DNA from: Promicromonospora iranensis
GTDB lineage: Bacteria; Actinomycetota; Actinomycetes; Actinomycetales; Cellulomonadaceae
DNA: 64,000 bases
Direction of reading: 5' to 3'
NCBI RefSeq assembly: GCF_028994805.1
Contig: NZ_JAJQQP010000008.1
Location: forward strand, 230,534 to 294,533
Shown: in pieces, positions 15,244-61,799 of the stretch
Layout of the letters: each line of letters opens with the position of its first letter
How positions within the stretch are numbered: position 1 is the stretch's first letter
Translations under genes and position numbers: made by a program
Notes under the pieces: model-generated
Seen by the model: the letters and a program-made list of their open reading frames with translations, nothing else
Told to the model about the DNA's origin: nothing
Database searches by the model: none

Positions 15244-15792
15244 GTGCTCCGCGCCCTGACCCGTCTCGCGATCCCGGTCCTGATCGCTGCCGTGCTGCTC
15301 ACCGCCTGCTCGACCGGACGGGACACCGGTCCGCGCGGACCCGAGGCGACGCGCGAGGCGACGCCCGCGCCCGAGGCGACCTGGACGCCGTCCGACAGCG
15401 TGGACCTCGCCGACCCGGAGCAGTACGCGGCGGCCCTGGAGGACGGCGTGAACGCGGCCCGTGCCCAGCGGGACGTGCCGGAGCTGGAGCATGACGACTG
15501 CCTCGTGGCCGTCGCCATCGACCGGGCGGGGGCGCTGGTCGGTGAGCCGAGGCTGACGCACGCCCCGCTGCCGCCCGTGCAGCAGAGCTGCCCGGGCGGC
15601 ACGCTCGCCGCGGAGAACCTCAGCCGGACCGCGCGCCCGCCCCAGGACGTCGTGCAGGCCTGGCTCGACTCGCCCTCGCACCGGGACAACCTCGTGAACG
15701 CCGACCTGCGGCGCGGTGCGATCGGGTGCGTGCGGGACGGCGGAACCGCTGCGGCACCCGTGCTGACGTGCTCCCACGTGTTCCTCGGTTGA
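15244..15792 (+). CDS. CAP-domain lipoprotein (tandem paralogue)
   Basis: A 182-residue shorter paralogue of the preceding gene. The signal peptide from the GTG at 15244 (MLRALTRLAIPVLIAAVLL) ends in the lipobox LLTAC. A short Pro/Thr/Ala linker precedes the CAP domain (EQYAAALEDGVNAARAQRDV, AENLSRTARPPQDVVQAW, SHRDNLVNADLRRGAIGC, CSHVFLG end). Both paralogues end with near-identical C(A/S)HVFLG tails, supporting recent duplication with linker shrinkage. No clear Shine-Dalgarno is visible; 119 bp separate it from the upstream gene. Its TGA stop is the first triplet of a dispersed 89-bp repeat. Confidence 0.83.
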   Translation: MLRALTRLAIPVLIAAVLLTACSTGRDTGPRGPEATREATPAPEATWTPSDSVDLADPEQYAAALEDGVNAARAQRDVPELEHDDCLVAVAIDRAGALVGEPRLTHAPLPPVQQSCPGGTLAAENLSRTARPPQDVVQAWLDSPSHRDNLVNADLRRGAIGCVRDGGTAAAPVLTCSHVFLG

Positions 15793-15878
15793 GCCGTAGG
15801 CGCAGCGCAGGGTGCGGTCCGAGGCACGGGGCACACGCCTGGGGCGGAAGCGCAGGCTCGACCGACAGCAGCACAGCC
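15790..15878 (+). repeat. Stop-codon-linked 89-bp dispersed repeat, copy A
   Basis: This copy aligns without gaps to copies at 34791-34703 (minus) and 48051-48139. It begins with the TGA stop of the CAP lipoprotein (TGAGCC) and is followed at exactly +89 by another TGA. Conserved blocks include CGCAGGGTGCGG near position 18, CCGAGG near 30 and CGCAGGCTC near 62. An overlapping frame from the TTG at 15789 is open for 30 codons (MSRRRSAGCGPR beginning) and ends at the second TGA. Confidence 0.8.
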
Positions 15879-24486: not shown

Positions 24487-24655
24487 ACGCCGAACTCTGT
24501 CACCGGCCGAGGTCCCAAGACGACCGCATGACAGAGGCGGGGGACCCACCAACGGGCGCCAGGGCGCGTCCTCGGGGTGAAGCCGGATCATTCTTCGGGA
24601 TGGGACGGCCGGGTGATTTCTCCCACCCGAACCCGACAGCTGACCTCGAAGGCGT
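24487..24655 (+). ncRNA. c-di-AMP riboswitch (ydaO/yuaA class)
   Basis: This leader carries the conserved blocks of the ydaO-yuaA class in order: CGCCGAACTCTG at the 5' side, GGGGGACCCACC near 24540, CGGGGTGAAGCCGGA near 24573, then CCCGAACCCGACAGCTGACC and TCGAAGGCG at the 3' end. Helix P1 pairs 24487-24491 with 24651-24655. In actinobacteria this class usually precedes cell-wall hydrolase genes and turns expression down when c-di-AMP is high. It ends 17 bp before an NlpC/P60 gene, exactly that context. The preceding 24296-24486 stretch has no gene; a small CCCACG/CGTGGG hairpin lies at about 24456-24475. Confidence 0.92.
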
Positions 24656-24672
24656 ACAAGGAGAGGTACTAC

Positions 24673-26602: not shown

Positions 26603-26672
26603 CGAGGTAGTCATCTGGCGAGGTAGTCACCCGATCGCCGCTGGGCGACTACCTCGCCAGATGACTACCTCG
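26603..26672. terminator. 26-bp perfect inverted repeat between convergent genes
   Basis: Arms 26603-26628 and 26647-26672 are perfectly complementary, with an 18-nt loop. Each arm itself contains CGAGGTAGTC twice (26603 and 26619), so alternative pairings exist. It lies 4 bp after the usp stop and 8 bp from the aminotransferase stop, consistent with a bidirectional terminator lacking U-tracts. Confidence 0.75.
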
Positions 26673-34702: not shown

Positions 34703-34791
34703 GGCTCTCCTCGTGTCGCATGAGTCTGCGGTTCCGCTCAGGGCGCGTGCCTCGTTCCTCGGCCCGCACCCTGCGCCGCACCTCTGGCTCA
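34703..34791 (-). repeat. Stop-codon-linked 89-bp dispersed repeat, copy B
   Basis: Read on the minus strand, it begins with the xylB stop (TGAGCC at 34791) and a second TGAGCC starts exactly 89 nt later at 34702, just before the serine hydrolase start. It aligns gap-free with copies A and C. An ATG at 34792 overlapping the xylB stop opens a 30-codon frame ([12 protein letters not shown] beginning) that ends at the second TGA. Confidence 0.8.
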
Positions 34792-36282
34792 TGCGAGGTC
34801 GCGCACCGCGGCGTACTGCTCGCGGATCACCGGCCGCGGGTCGGCGGCGAGCGTCGTGGCGATCGTCGTGGACCACGCCGGAGCCGCGGCGTCCGGGTCG
34901 GCCGCGGCTGCCAGGACCCAGGCTGCCTGGCGCGCGGCACCGTCGGCCACGTACTCGCCGGGCTCGGGGATGCCGATCGGCAGGCCGAAGACCTGCGGGG
35001 CGATCTGCTGCACGGCCGGCGACTGCGCCGCGCCGCCGATCAGCATCACGCGGTCCACCGAGACGCCCTGCGCGCGCAGGGCGTCGAGACCGTCCGCGAG
35101 CCCGCACAGCATGCCCTCGATGTAGGCGCGCGCCAGGTGCGCACGGGTCGACGTGGCGAGGCGGATGCCGTGCAGGGTGCCGGTGGCGGAGGGTCGGTTG
35201 GGCGTGCGCTCGCCCTCCAGGTACGGCACGAGCACGAGGCCGTCGGACCCGGGCGGGGCCTGCAGTGCGAGCTCGGCCAGGCCGTCGAAGTCGACGTCGA
35301 GCACCTCGCGGGCGGCGTCCAGGACCCGTGCCGCGTTGAGCGTGACGGCGAGCATGAGGGCGTTGCCCGTCGCGTCGGCGAAACCGTTGATCGCGCCCGA
35401 CCCGTCGGCGGTGCGCTTCGGCGCGACGGCCGAGACCACGCCCGAGGTCCCGATCGAGATGGCGATGTCGCCGGACGTCATGCCGAGCCCGAGGGACGCC
35501 CCAGCGTTGTCGCCGGCGCCCGGCCCGACGAGGCAGCCGTTCGAGCCGAGGGACGTGGCGGTCGCCCCGCCCGCGACGGCCGGGTGCGCGACGGCGCCCG
35601 CCTCGGCGACCCCGACCACGCGCGGCAGCACGACGTCGGTCCGCCCCAGGGCACGTTCGAGCAGGTCAGGCCGGTACTGACCCGCGGAGGCGTCGTAGTA
35701 CCCGGTGCCGGACGCGTCCGACCGGTCGGTGAACAGCTTGTCCAGCTGCGGCCCGAGCGGGGCAGTCGGGTCGCCTGCGGGGCCGTAGCCCGCGATGCGC
35801 CAGGACAGCCAGTCGTGCGGCAGCGCGACGGCGGCGACCTTGGCGGCGTTCTCCGGCTCGTTGTCGCGCAGCCAGCGCAGCTTCGTGACGGTCAGCGACG
35901 CGACGAGCACGGAGCCGACGGCGTCGGCCCAGGCCTGGGCACCGGCCTCGCGGCTACCGTCGCCCAGCTCGCTGATCAGCGCCTCCGCCGACGGCGCCGA
36001 GCGGTTGTCGTTCCACAGCAGCGCGGGCCGGATGACGTTGCCGTCGGCGTCCAGGACGACCATGCCGTGCTGCTGACCACCCACGGAGAGCGCAGCGACG
36101 TCGGCCAGGCCACCGGCCGCTGCAGCCGCCTCCTTGAAGGCGTCCCACCAGTGCTGCGGGTCCACCTCCGTGCCGTCCGGATGCTTGGCGGAACCGGTCC
36201 GGACCAGCGCGCCGGTCTCGGCGTCGCGGACGACGATCTTGCAGGACTGCGTGGACGTGTCCACGCCGGCGACGAGGGGCAT
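34789..36282 (-). CDS. xylB: Xylulokinase
   Basis: A 497-residue FGGY-family kinase phosphorylating D-xylulose to xylulose 5-phosphate. The N-terminal phosphate loop is [28 protein letters not shown] holds the sugar-binding region, [15 protein letters not shown] and [11 protein letters not shown] the FGGY signatures and ATP site, and [15 protein letters not shown] the adenosine motif. It is second in the xylA-xylB operon; the gap between the two carries a 21-bp perfect hairpin that may lower xylB expression relative to xylA. The gene ends in copy B of the 89-bp repeat. Confidence 0.96.
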
Positions 36283-47057: not shown

Positions 47058-48053
47058 ATGCGCGGATATCTCGCACGCAAGACCCTGGTCTACGGCCTGA
47101 CCTTCGTCGTAGCGGTCACGCTGAACTGGCTGATCCCCCGGCTCATGCCGGGGGATCCGGTTCAGCGGATGGTGGCGCGCGCCGCCGTCCAGCACCCCGA
47201 GACGATCGCGTCGATGACCGACTACTACGAGCGCACCTTCGGTCTGGACCTGCCGGTCTGGCAGCAGTACCTGAACTACTGGGCTGCGCTGTTCCGCGGT
47301 GACCTGGGCACCAGCGTGTGGCTGTTCCCCGCGCCGGTGAGCCAGGTCGTGCTCGACGCCGTCCCGTACACGCTGGGCATCATGATCCCGGCCATCCTGC
47401 TCAGCTGGGTGGTCGGCAACAGCGTGGGCGCGATGGCGGCGCGCAGCCGCTGGCTCGACAACGTGGCCCTGCCCATCGGGTACCTGATCACCGCCATGCC
47501 GTACATGTGGCTCGCGATCCTGCTCGCGTGGGGCTTCGGCGTGGCGCTCGGCTGGTTCCCCGTGGCCGGCGGATACGACTTCGGCCTGGTGCCGCAGTGG
47601 TCGTGGTCGTTCGCCCTGGACCTGCTGCAGCACTGGGTGCTGCCGTTCCTGTCACTGTTCCTGGTGGCGCTCGGCGGCTGGGCGATCGGTATGCGGAACC
47701 TGATCATCTACGAGCTCGAGTCGGACTACTCGAACTACCTCGCCGCGCTCGGCGCGCCGAAGCGGCTCATCCGGAAGTACGCGTTCCGCAACGCGATGCT
47801 GCCGCAGATCACCGGACTCGCGCTGCAGCTCGGCACCATCCTGGGCGGTGCCCTGGTGACCGAGATCGTGTTCGCCTACCCGGGGCTGGGCAGGCTCGTA
47901 CTGTCCGCCATCCAGAACCAGGACTTCTTCCTGCTGCAGGGCACCCTGCTGTTCGTGGTGATCGGCGTGCTCCTGGCCAACTTCGTGATCGACATCGTCT
48001 ACGTGCTGGTCGACCCCCGCACGCGGACCGGACTGACGGGGGCGACCGCATGA
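47058..48053 (+). CDS. Opp/Dpp-type ABC permease (OppB-like)
   Basis: A 331-residue permease with six helices. The N-terminal KTLVYGLTFVVAVTLNWLIP and RLMPGDPVQRMV are typical of this class; the large exoplasmic loop contains YERTFGLDLPVWQQYLNYW and the EAA loop is NYLAALGAPKRLIRKYAFRNAM. TEIVFAYPGLGRLVLSAIQN is diagnostic of OppB-like proteins. The ATG lies 3 bp after the receptor stop. Its TGA stop forms the first bases of repeat copy C, which separates it from the next permease gene by 105 bp. Confidence 0.92.
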   Translation: MRGYLARKTLVYGLTFVVAVTLNWLIPRLMPGDPVQRMVARAAVQHPETIASMTDYYERTFGLDLPVWQQYLNYWAALFRGDLGTSVWLFPAPVSQVVLDAVPYTLGIMIPAILLSWVVGNSVGAMAARSRWLDNVALPIGYLITAMPYMWLAILLAWGFGVALGWFPVAGGYDFGLVPQWSWSFALDLLQHWVLPFLSLFLVALGGWAIGMRNLIIYELESDYSNYLAALGAPKRLIRKYAFRNAMLPQITGLALQLGTILGGALVTEIVFAYPGLGRLVLSAIQNQDFFLLQGTLLFVVIGVLLANFVIDIVYVLVDPRTRTGLTGATA

Positions 48054-48139
48054 GCCGAAGGCGCAGCGGAGGGTGGGGGCCGAGGTACGAGGTGCCCGCC
48101 CGTAGCGGAGCCGCAGGCTCGTGCGGAAAGAGAACGACA
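48051..48139 (+). repeat. Stop-codon-linked 89-bp dispersed repeat, copy C
   Basis: It begins at the oppB-like TGA (TGAGCC) and ends 89 nt later, where TGAGCC recurs at 48140. A 13-bp direct repeat CATGAGCCGAAGG is present at 48049-48061 and 48138-48150, bracketing the unit as if by insertion or duplication. Removing one unit would leave GCCGAAGGAGAAAGGC between the two operon genes, an ordinary Shine-Dalgarno spacer. An ATG at 48050 opens a 30-codon frame (MSRRRSGGWGPR beginning) ending at 48142. Confidence 0.85.
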
Positions 48140-48158
48140 TGAGCCGAAGGAGAAAGGC

Positions 48159-49100
48159 ATGACGGCGACTCAACCCACGGCGGCGCCCGGGGCCGAGGCG
48201 GGCGAAACGCCCGGCGTGACCGGCCCGGTGGCGTCGGGCGGCCGCAAGGCACAGGGCGACGTGCGCGAGACCCTGTACTTCGCCCTGCGCAACCCCAAGG
48301 TGCTGATCGGTCTGGTGGTGGTGCTCGGGTTCCTGCTGCTCGGGCTGCTCGGCCCGCTGTTCCTGCGGCACGCGCCGATGGACTACGCCGGCCCGCCCAT
48401 GGCACCGCCGTCGGCGGACTTCCCGTTCGGTACGACGACGTTCGGCCAGGACGTCTTCGCGCAGTTCGTCGCGGGCCTGCGGTCCACGTTCCTCGTCGGC
48501 CTCCTGGGCGGCGGGGTGGCCGCGGTGATCGGCATGACCATCGGGTTCGTGGCCGGCTACCGCGGCGGCCTGATCGACGAGCTGCTCAACATGCTCACCA
48601 ACGTGGTGCTCGTGATCCCGGGCTTCGTGGTGCTCATCATCATCAACGCCTACCTGGGCGTGCGCAGCGTCCCGATGCAGGCGCTGTACATCGGCATCTT
48701 CACCTGGCCGTGGGTGGCGCGTGCCGTCCGCTCGCAGACCCTGTCGCTGCGGTCCCGGGACTTCATCGACCTGGCCCGGCTGTCGGGCGTGGGGGTGGGC
48801 ACGATCCTGCGGCGCGAGGTCGCGCCCAACATGTACTCCTACCTCTTCATGACGTTCGTGCTGCTGTTCGGCGGTTCCATCCTCACGGCCGCGTCGCTCG
48901 ACTTCATCGGGCTGGGACCCACCAACGCGATGTCGCTCGGCCTGATGATGAACCAGGCCGTGCAGTGGAGCGCGCTTCATCTGGGGCTGTGGTGGTGGTT
49001 CATCCCGCCCGGGCTGGGCATCACCCTCATCGTGGGCTCGCTCTACATCATGAACGTCGGCCTCGACGAGGTCTTCAACCCCAAGCTGCGGGAGATGTGA
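48159..49100 (+). CDS. Opp/Dpp-type ABC permease (OppC-like)
   Basis: A 313-residue permease. A polar, Pro/Gly/Ala-rich 35-residue leader precedes the first helix (VLIGLVVVLGFLLLGLLGPL); FPFGTTTFGQDVFAQFVAGL is the conserved OppC/DppC region (usually GTDxxGRD), and FIDLARLSGVGVGTILRREV the EAA loop. SLDFIGLGPTNAMSLGLMM is a family landmark. The ATG at 48159 follows GAAGGAGAAAGG. It pairs with the OppB-like subunit despite the intervening repeat. Confidence 0.92.
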   Translation: MTATQPTAAPGAEAGETPGVTGPVASGGRKAQGDVRETLYFALRNPKVLIGLVVVLGFLLLGLLGPLFLRHAPMDYAGPPMAPPSADFPFGTTTFGQDVFAQFVAGLRSTFLVGLLGGGVAAVIGMTIGFVAGYRGGLIDELLNMLTNVVLVIPGFVVLIIINAYLGVRSVPMQALYIGIFTWPWVARAVRSQTLSLRSRDFIDLARLSGVGVGTILRREVAPNMYSYLFMTFVLLFGGSILTAASLDFIGLGPTNAMSLGLMMNQAVQWSALHLGLWWWFIPPGLGITLIVGSLYIMNVGLDEVFNPKLREM

Positions 49101-59460: not shown

Positions 59461-59537
59461 TCGGTCGGTTGGTTCAAGATCGGTCGGTTGCTATGAGATC
59501 GGTCGGTTGAATGACCGATCTCATAGCAACCGACCGA
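59461..59537. repeat. 19-bp tandem units plus 25-bp perfect hairpin
   Basis: CGGTCGGTTG recurs every 19 bp at 59462, 59481 and 59500. Arms 59480-59504 and 59513-59537 pair perfectly over 25 bp with an 8-nt loop. It lies about 35 bp downstream of the helicase-like gene and probably serves as its terminator. The module CGGTCGGTTG-4 nt-GAGATCGGTC is shared with the palindrome at 61728-61799. Confidence 0.75.
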
Positions 59538-59634
59538 AGTGAGCTGTTCGCTGTCGCCCGGGCAGACCTGAACGCGCTGGTGGCGTTTGCCACGACGTGA
59601 CCGGACGCGCGCCGCACGGGGTCACAATGGAGGA

Positions 59635-59889: not shown

Positions 59890-59913
59890 GGCGCGCCTGG
59901 TCGGCACTACGTC

Positions 59914-59983
59914 GGGTGATCGGTCAAAGGTCAGGTGGTCGGCAGTCCGAGCTGCCGACCACCTGACCTTTGACCGATCACCC
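59914..59983. terminator. 32-bp perfect hairpin
   Basis: Arms 59914-59945 and 59952-59983 are perfectly complementary over 32 bp with a 6-nt loop TCCGAG. It lies 24 bp after the small protein gene and 47 bp from the mscL stop on the other strand, so it may act bidirectionally. No U-tract is present. Confidence 0.75.
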
Positions 59984-60030
59984 GTGATGGGCGCCACCAT
60001 CGCAGCGCGCGCGGGTGCTGGGTTGTTGCG

Positions 60031-61727: not shown

Positions 61728-61799
61728 CGTGACTTCGGTCGGTTGATCTGAGATCGGTCCGTCGACGGACCGATCTCAGATCAACCGACCGAAGTCACG
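61728..61799. repeat. 72-bp perfect spacerless palindrome
   Basis: Bases 61728-61763 are the exact reverse complement of 61764-61799, centred on GTCGAC with no loop. It lies in the 322-bp gap 61526-61847, about 48 bp after the fmdB stop, so on the minus strand it follows fmdB and precedes the SAF gene. No other feature is evident in that gap. It contains CGGTCGGTTG-4 nt-GAGATCGGTC, shared with the hairpin at 59480. Confidence 0.85.

Follow-up and report, generated by a model that had tools for sequence, protein, structure and literature searches.

Three copies of an 89-nt repeat in Promicromonospora iranensis each begin exactly at the stop codon of a gene. The question is whether such a repeat is directed to stop codons or held there by a function at the 3′ ends of genes. 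A preliminary description, made from the letters alone, proposed either a stop-codon-targeted element or a conserved 3′-UTR device. The window is the whole stretch of DNA that was analysed, 64,000 nt of contig NZ_JAJQQP010000008.1. The repeat is probably a short, MIRU-like mobile element that is non-autonomous and belongs to the Promicromonospora-Isoptericola-Xylanimonas group.

Copies, distribution and placement at TGA stops

Reading of the sequence reproduced the coordinates first reported for the three window copies: 15790–15878 (+), 34791–34703 (−) and 48051–48139 (+). The open frames were checked, and the first triplet of each copy is indeed the in-frame TGA of the preceding gene. The host genes had been named as a CAP lipoprotein, xylB and oppB-like; a family search assigns PF00188 to the CAP-domain protein, PF00370/PF02782 to the FGGY-type kinase and PF00528 to the BPD_transp_1 permease. 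In the list below, X denotes the 5 nt of the host gene directly before TGA, and X′ the 5 nt that follow the 3′ arm of the repeat.

48051–48139, +, copy 3, an 89-nt unit of hairpin plus spacer that begins at the TGA of the oppB-like gene (sequence, genome searches)
48046–48050, +, X of copy 3, CCGCA, the last 5 nt of the oppB-like gene, pairs with X′
48122–48126, +, X′ of copy 3, TGCGG, complement of X
48140–48149, +, second TGA with GCCGAAG behind copy 3, either a duplicated target or the beginning of a second, truncated unit
48159–48162, +, ATGA opening the oppC-like gene (sequence)
15790–15878, +, copy 1, behind the CAP-domain gene
15785–15789, +, X of copy 1, TCGGT
15861–15865, +, X′ of copy 1, ACCGA, perfectly complementary to X
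34703–34791, −, copy 2, behind the xylB-like FGGY kinase gene
34792–34796, −, X of copy 2, TCGCA
34716–34720, −, X′ of copy 2, TGCGA, perfectly complementary to X

Copies 1 and 3 fit a 35-nt pattern with 0 matches in 100 shuffles, and a repeat search pairs copy 1 with copy 2 over 99 nt at 78% identity. The next TGA was described as lying 89 nt after the first. This holds for all three window copies but not as a general rule: in a set of 110 copies, a TGA falls within the searched range in 88. It lies 89 nt on in 28 of them, 90 nt on in 38 and 88–93 nt on in 85, when the TGA closest to 89 nt is the one counted.

Searches of the genome and of relatives, suggested with the preliminary description, recovered further copies well beyond the window. 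DNA, pattern and covariance-model searches found at least 11 full-length copies in the P. iranensis genome, with truncated tandem units behind two of them. This number is a lower bound; the covariance-model search scored 150 candidates, and the three kinds of search recover overlapping subsets of copies. The covariance model was built from ten copies. Nine of the 11 genome copies lie at the in-frame TGA of a long frame with high GC3, one (C1) has TGG there, and one (C9) has no clear frame. A P. iranensis copy on contig 9 (L046) has no clear upstream frame; a P. umidemergens copy with the same X (L148) follows a frame of 206 codons.

In a family sample, 87 of 200 genomes have covariance-model matches at E≤0.01, with at most 22 candidates scored per genome. 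The genus Promicromonospora accounts for 12 carriers among 13 genomes at the same threshold. A phylum sample of 396 genomes was searched with strict filters and 11 candidates scored per genome; the P. iranensis genome alone matches, with no match at E≤0.001 in the other 395.

An exact core pattern applied to named genomes gave 113 stretches from Promicromonospora, Antribacter, Isoptericola and others. Eighty of these were listed, from Promicromonospora, Antribacter, Isoptericola, Myceligenerans, Xylanimonas, Xylanimicrobium and Cellulosimicrobium, and contain 122 units in 81 arrays. Tandem units number 2–5 in 35/81 arrays, with a unit of 88–93 nt. The core pattern begins 12 nt inside the element and is therefore blind to TGA and flanks; conservation within the core is partly built in, because the copies were gathered by it.

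Two subtypes were seen. One has GAGCGCTGA at its 5′ end (L113, L120, L133, L152, L156 and L157), also lies at stop codons, and reaches five tandem units in L157. The other (L112, L119, L125 and L166) has GACGAAGG, or a sequence close to it, towards its 5′ end. Three of these four lack a TGA at the usual place, so the target rule of this subtype may differ.

Orientation and distance to the upstream stop were tabulated for the collected copies, and most start at a sense TGA stop, as first described. Of the 105 usable first copies in the 113 loci, 94 have a sense-strand, coding-like TGA stop at their start, and none has TAA or TAG there. In the 80 loci the figure is 66/73 usable first copies by a GC3 rule and 66/75 by a codon-model gene caller. 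The GC3-rule and 113-locus counts set aside first copies with <300 nt upstream or with N (8/81 and 10/115, respectively), and the codon-model count those with <150 nt upstream or with N. As background, 119/519 other coding stops in the 80 loci are TAA or TAG, and 370 of 10,011 TGA triplets outside elements were called stops (370/1,779 outside genes).

Eleven of the 105 usable first copies lie away from a coding-like stop. The codon-model caller places nine of 75 elsewhere: five are intergenic with a TGA, one is inside a sense gene, and three, the variant units L125, L150 and L166, have no TGA.

The base preceding TGA is C in 58/66 occupied stops and A, G or T in the remaining 8. X reads TCGNC in 36/66 occupied stops versus 14/519 other coding stops. 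Outside elements, 25 TCGNC-TGA words (TCGNCTGA) were counted, 11 at stops, 10 within genes and 4 intergenic; the count excludes the opposite strand of the elements, where the palindrome repeats the word. A preference for TCGNC-TGA, combined with purging of gene-breaking insertions, could explain much of the stop placement (11/15 expected versus 66/75 seen, both small numbers). The stop rule alone therefore requires no link to translation. The proposal of a stop-codon-targeted element stands in that most copies are at TGA stops, and needs qualifying in that the actual site is a directional word, TCGNC-TGA.

Genes downstream of the copies are on the opposite strand (convergent) in 34 cases and on the same strand in 32. 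A role in a downstream operon was dropped on this count.

Hairpin and matched foot

Each unit is an imperfect palindrome that folds, in the sense strand, as one long hairpin. The hairpin foot has 11 bp, made up of X (5 nt) and TGAGCC. Above it come three 3×3 internal loops of the GNA/GNA form, present in 70, 82 and 82 of 86 copies. Helices of 3 and 2 bp lie between these loops, and a 10-pair helix follows them. The central U·G pair of the 10-pair helix is kept in 85/86 copies, and the apical loop is GAGGAACGA in 79/86. Left out of the pair counts over the 86 copies are those that have <20/27 pairs, contain N or lack a TGA where one is expected. The 5′ half of the hairpin lies partly within the search pattern, so that its conservation, GNA/GNA included, is partly built in. 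The preliminary description missed that the unit is palindromic and that the foot of its hairpin pairs with the final codons of the upstream gene.

A covariance model had been suggested as a test of RNA structure, and a covarying structure was found. The ten P. iranensis copies contain 22 double-changed cells, a number reached in 0/500 shuffles. Mispairs, excluding the unpaired first column and the fixed U·G, comprise 43 GT versus 16 AC, or 26 versus 16 without the T of TGA. The GT excess, only modest once fixed columns are removed, weakly suggests a preference for sense-strand folding, and either RNA or single-stranded DNA may be what folds. No Rfam family was found at the three window copies at gathering scores, and a permissive Rfam search at four copy-bearing loci returned 8 matches, all under the gathering score.

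X and X′ pair perfectly over 5 nt in 55/88 first copies at stops, with a mean of 4.55 of 5. Across 2000 permutations, the number of perfect copies averaged 8.9 and never exceeded 18. Positions −1 to −5 are paired in 86, 75, 82, 83 and 74 of 88 copies, and position −6 in 24/88, near chance. An earlier count found 41/69 perfect and position −6 paired in 16/69; it included some first copies near the locus edge (L104 among them), and the repeat with 88 copies, each with at least 300 nt upstream, agrees. Copies without a recognisable 6-bp stem are excluded from the X/X′ counts. Imperfect matches occur in 36/93 first copies, and 16 of these 36 have GGCGA or GGCGG as X′.

At orthologous sites X′ follows X where X differs. 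The nuoK-type sites have GTGGG/CCCAC and ATGGG/ACCAT (one mismatch), and at the acnA-type orthologues X′ tracks X as TCGCC/GGCGA and TGGCC/GGCCA. Gene-end copies of Antribacter soli with identical 59-nt cores also differ in their feet: L122 has TCGAC/GTCGA versus TCGGC/GCCGA in L142, and L138 has TCGAG/CTCGA versus TCGCC/GGCGA in L165. A counter-example in the same species is L131, from an identical-core pair, in which the foot is unmatched (X TCGAC with X′ GGCGA). Because spacers vary among the Antribacter copies, the cores may be identical through constraint and not through recent copying, and this weakens the case that X′ is set at insertion. X is repeated before the 3′ TGA in 12/35 single copies (permuted maximum 7) and in 20/33 first copies of arrays (permuted maximum 9). 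X′ could originate by copying at insertion, by later hairpin-templated correction or by selection.

The window also contains other palindromes and structured elements. A different motif, CGAGGTAGTCA, is present at 26603–26672 in direct and inverted copies and forms a palindrome with 30-nt arms; a close relative lies downstream of the acnA-type gene in a congener (L256). An inverted repeat at 59480–59540 and 61732–61792 has two 61-nt arms, 87% complementary and 2.2 kb apart. Inverted repeats at 61728–61799 and 59913–59984 are a palindrome with overlapping 39-nt arms and a perfect hairpin with 33-nt arms, respectively. A c-di-AMP riboswitch (RF00379) scores above its gathering score at 24495–24670.

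Occupied and empty sites and competing readings

Orthologous sites were compared among congeners; the gene labels acnA, purB and nuoK are putative and follow our reading of the translations. The acnA-type site is filled in 4/13 congeners and empty in 9, and in 5 of the 9 empty sites X is already TCGCC. The purB-type site has 2 filled cases and 1 deletion derivative among 13 congeners, and 7 of the other 10 have CTGGAC as X. Three full copies and 2 derivatives are found at the oppB/oppC site among 13 congeners. In five congeners without the element (L233, L235, L239, L241 and L242), the oppB stop and the oppC-like start overlap as a bare ATGA, and at filled sites ATGA is present again ahead of the next gene. 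L240 has two tandem units at this site, and L234, L237 and L243 have other short inserts or remnants.

Of 30 nuoK/nuoL-type loci, 29 were readable, with 4 filled or diverged, 2 deletion derivatives and 23 empty. Within one genus, the filled loci L206 and L207 agree with the empty locus L205 for 38 nt from the (second) TGA, and TGA is thus duplicated at the nuoK-type site. The deletion derivatives (L202, L204, L236, L238 and L260) have lost the inner hairpin and kept the outer stem. An all-against-all BLAST of flanks gave mostly element-to-element matches among those listed, and none of the counts draws on it.

The mobile-element reading draws on the placement and orientation of the copies, the duplicated TGA at the nuoK-type site, presence and absence among congeners, tandem copies, the X/X′ pairing with its 5-nt edge, and covariation. 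Present-day movement, the enzyme responsible and the way in which X′ is set are more conjectural. The element would insert in one orientation, with a preference for TCGNC-TGA, and would leave TGA on both sides and, in some copies, also the preceding 5 nt. Gene-internal insertions would be lost, and survivors would sit at TGA stops. The sense strand of the inserted element would then fold into one long hairpin. X′ would come into register with X during or after insertion. Correction templated by the hairpin could achieve this, or selection could favour a paired foot because the mobilising machinery, or mRNA protection, needs one.

A tentative extension is that the element rewrites its 5-nt foot at each insertion by copying X from the host gene, and so forms a stem at any stop codon where it lands and behaves as a target-templated, self-fitting mobile hairpin. 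The folded 3′ end could, for example, self-prime extension on a staggered X-TGA overhang, which would account for the sharp 5-nt edge.

No mobilising enzyme was identified in searches of 200 family genomes for PF01797 and PF00078. Y1 transposase (PF01797) is found in 0/13 genus genomes and in 2/200 family genomes, neither with the element. Reverse transcriptase RVT_1 (PF00078) is found in 0/13 genus genomes and in 15/200 family genomes, 3 of them with elements. A retroelement origin (group II intron, retron or DGR) was dropped on the count of 0/13 for PF00078. A phage or plasmid vehicle was sought and none was found: plasmid and phage records contain no copy at E≤0.001, and viral contigs none by one exact pattern.

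The second proposal of the preliminary description, a conserved 3′-UTR device, would make the repeat mainly a functional hairpin, one that makes mRNA more stable or detects terminating ribosomes and that selection holds at stops, with spread being secondary. In its favour, the stem remains largely paired though X changes at orthologous nuoK-type and acnA-type sites, the outer stem is kept in the deletion derivatives listed above, and the U·G pair is conserved in the sense strand. However, the placement is explicable without such a device, most orthologous genes lack the element (9/13 acnA-type, 23/29 nuoK-type), and a strong site word is unexpected for a selected device. Downstream genes are also about equally convergent and codirectional (34 versus 32). 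Selection as the main cause is unlikely.

A guide role for X′ overlaps with the mobile-element reading and is proposed by analogy. The folded element would choose its target stops through pairing between X′ and the 5 nt that precede TGA. Guide pairing is known in IS200/IS605 and, as EBS/IBS, in group II introns. The sharp pairing limit at 5 nt and the X words that pre-exist at empty acnA- and purB-type sites are consistent with a guide. Position −2, however, is nearly free in X yet matched in 75/88 copies, where an inherited guide should be variant-poor. The 16/36 imperfect copies with X′ GGCGA or GGCGG give the impression of a common form that inserted at different words, and Y1 transposase and RVT_1 are absent from the genus genomes searched. 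A guide role is unlikely too. The strong hairpin directly 3′ of the stop would fit an intrinsic terminator of transcription or a chance family that resembles terminators. Either is highly improbable for a lineage-restricted repeat with precise TGA junctions, tandem units, empty sites, no T tract and 0 terminator-like sites around the three window copies.

Comparison with known systems

Read as a mobile element, the repeat was compared with other small dispersed repeats. REP elements and their RAYT enzymes are related to IS200/IS605, and REP elements are short, dispersed, imperfect palindromes near gene ends. The present repeat shares these features but, unlike REP/RAYT, has a fixed relation to TGA and to strand. 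A REP/RAYT reading was dropped, given PF01797 in 0/13 genus genomes and in 2/200 family genomes, neither with the element.

MITEs and other small dispersed hairpins are non-autonomous, short and dispersed, with tandem or truncated copies. The present repeat is like them in all these respects. It differs in its one-orientation insertion at stops and its host-matched stem foot, and no parent transposon was recognised, although the search for one was not systematic.

The TAACTGA repeats of Beggiatoaceae are intergenic heptamers, mostly just ahead of start codons (PMC4679880). They resemble the present repeat in being intergenic with stop triplets inside the unit, and they differ in being heptamers near starts, whereas the present unit is about 90 nt and lies at stops. 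In the open-access literature, judged from titles and abstract openings and with most subscription journals outside its scope, no paper was found that describes the present repeat. Genes of this bacterial family have hairpins at their 3′ ends, with a possible effect on the 3′ ends of mRNAs.

MIRUs reportedly (Supply, 1997) are short, tandem-capable and sense-oriented and lie at TGA-containing stop/start junctions. They are defined by insertion at DTGA stop/start overlaps and by a small ORF that overlaps both neighbours. A MIRU core sequence matches 144/297 genomes of a genus that we take to be Mycobacterium. Of 30 mycobacterial loci (L276–L305), 10 have a coding-like TGA stop 16–25 nt ahead of the MIRU core, and tandem units are seen as well. 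On inspection by eye, direct repeats that start with or contain TGA flank several of the MIRU copies (for example TGAAGC in L283 and CGCATGAGC in L285), which suggests a target duplication of about 5–6 nt. A review describes MIRUs as apparently mobile, inserting at start codons and having a coupled ORF (PMC12548453), and another paper gives tandem units of 46–101 bp (PMC3914561).

Like MIRUs, the present repeat is short, tandem-capable and sense-oriented and lies at TGA-containing junctions. It has the orientation of the upstream gene (94/105 first copies; 66/75 by the other caller) and forms tandem arrays (2–5 units of 88–93 nt in 35/81). The oppB/oppC site is a true ATGA case, with ATGA at the empty site and its restoration by the element.

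Unlike MIRUs, it lies mostly at CTGA (58/66) and not at DTGA. It has no significant sequence similarity to them; in local alignments of the two consensuses under two scorings, 79/1000 and 587/1000 dinucleotide shuffles score at least as high. The small ORF is not kept, with an NTG frame (89 or 92) in 32/88 copies and 10/41 tandem steps, about one third of units or less. The palindrome is much longer, and the foot is host-matched, a feature for which none was noticed in the MIRU loci on inspection by eye. Because it departs from MIRUs in sequence, in DTGA and in the small ORF, the repeat is called MIRU-like and not MIRU.

MIRU-like repeats have been used in strain typing for decades, and we know of no account of how they move. 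The present repeat provides a second MIRU-like case, without detectable sequence similarity, with many copies and clean empty sites in soil bacteria. Its stem foot, matched to the target, is a new clue to movement, and the placement at stop codons of small repeats with no known transposase becomes a testable question.
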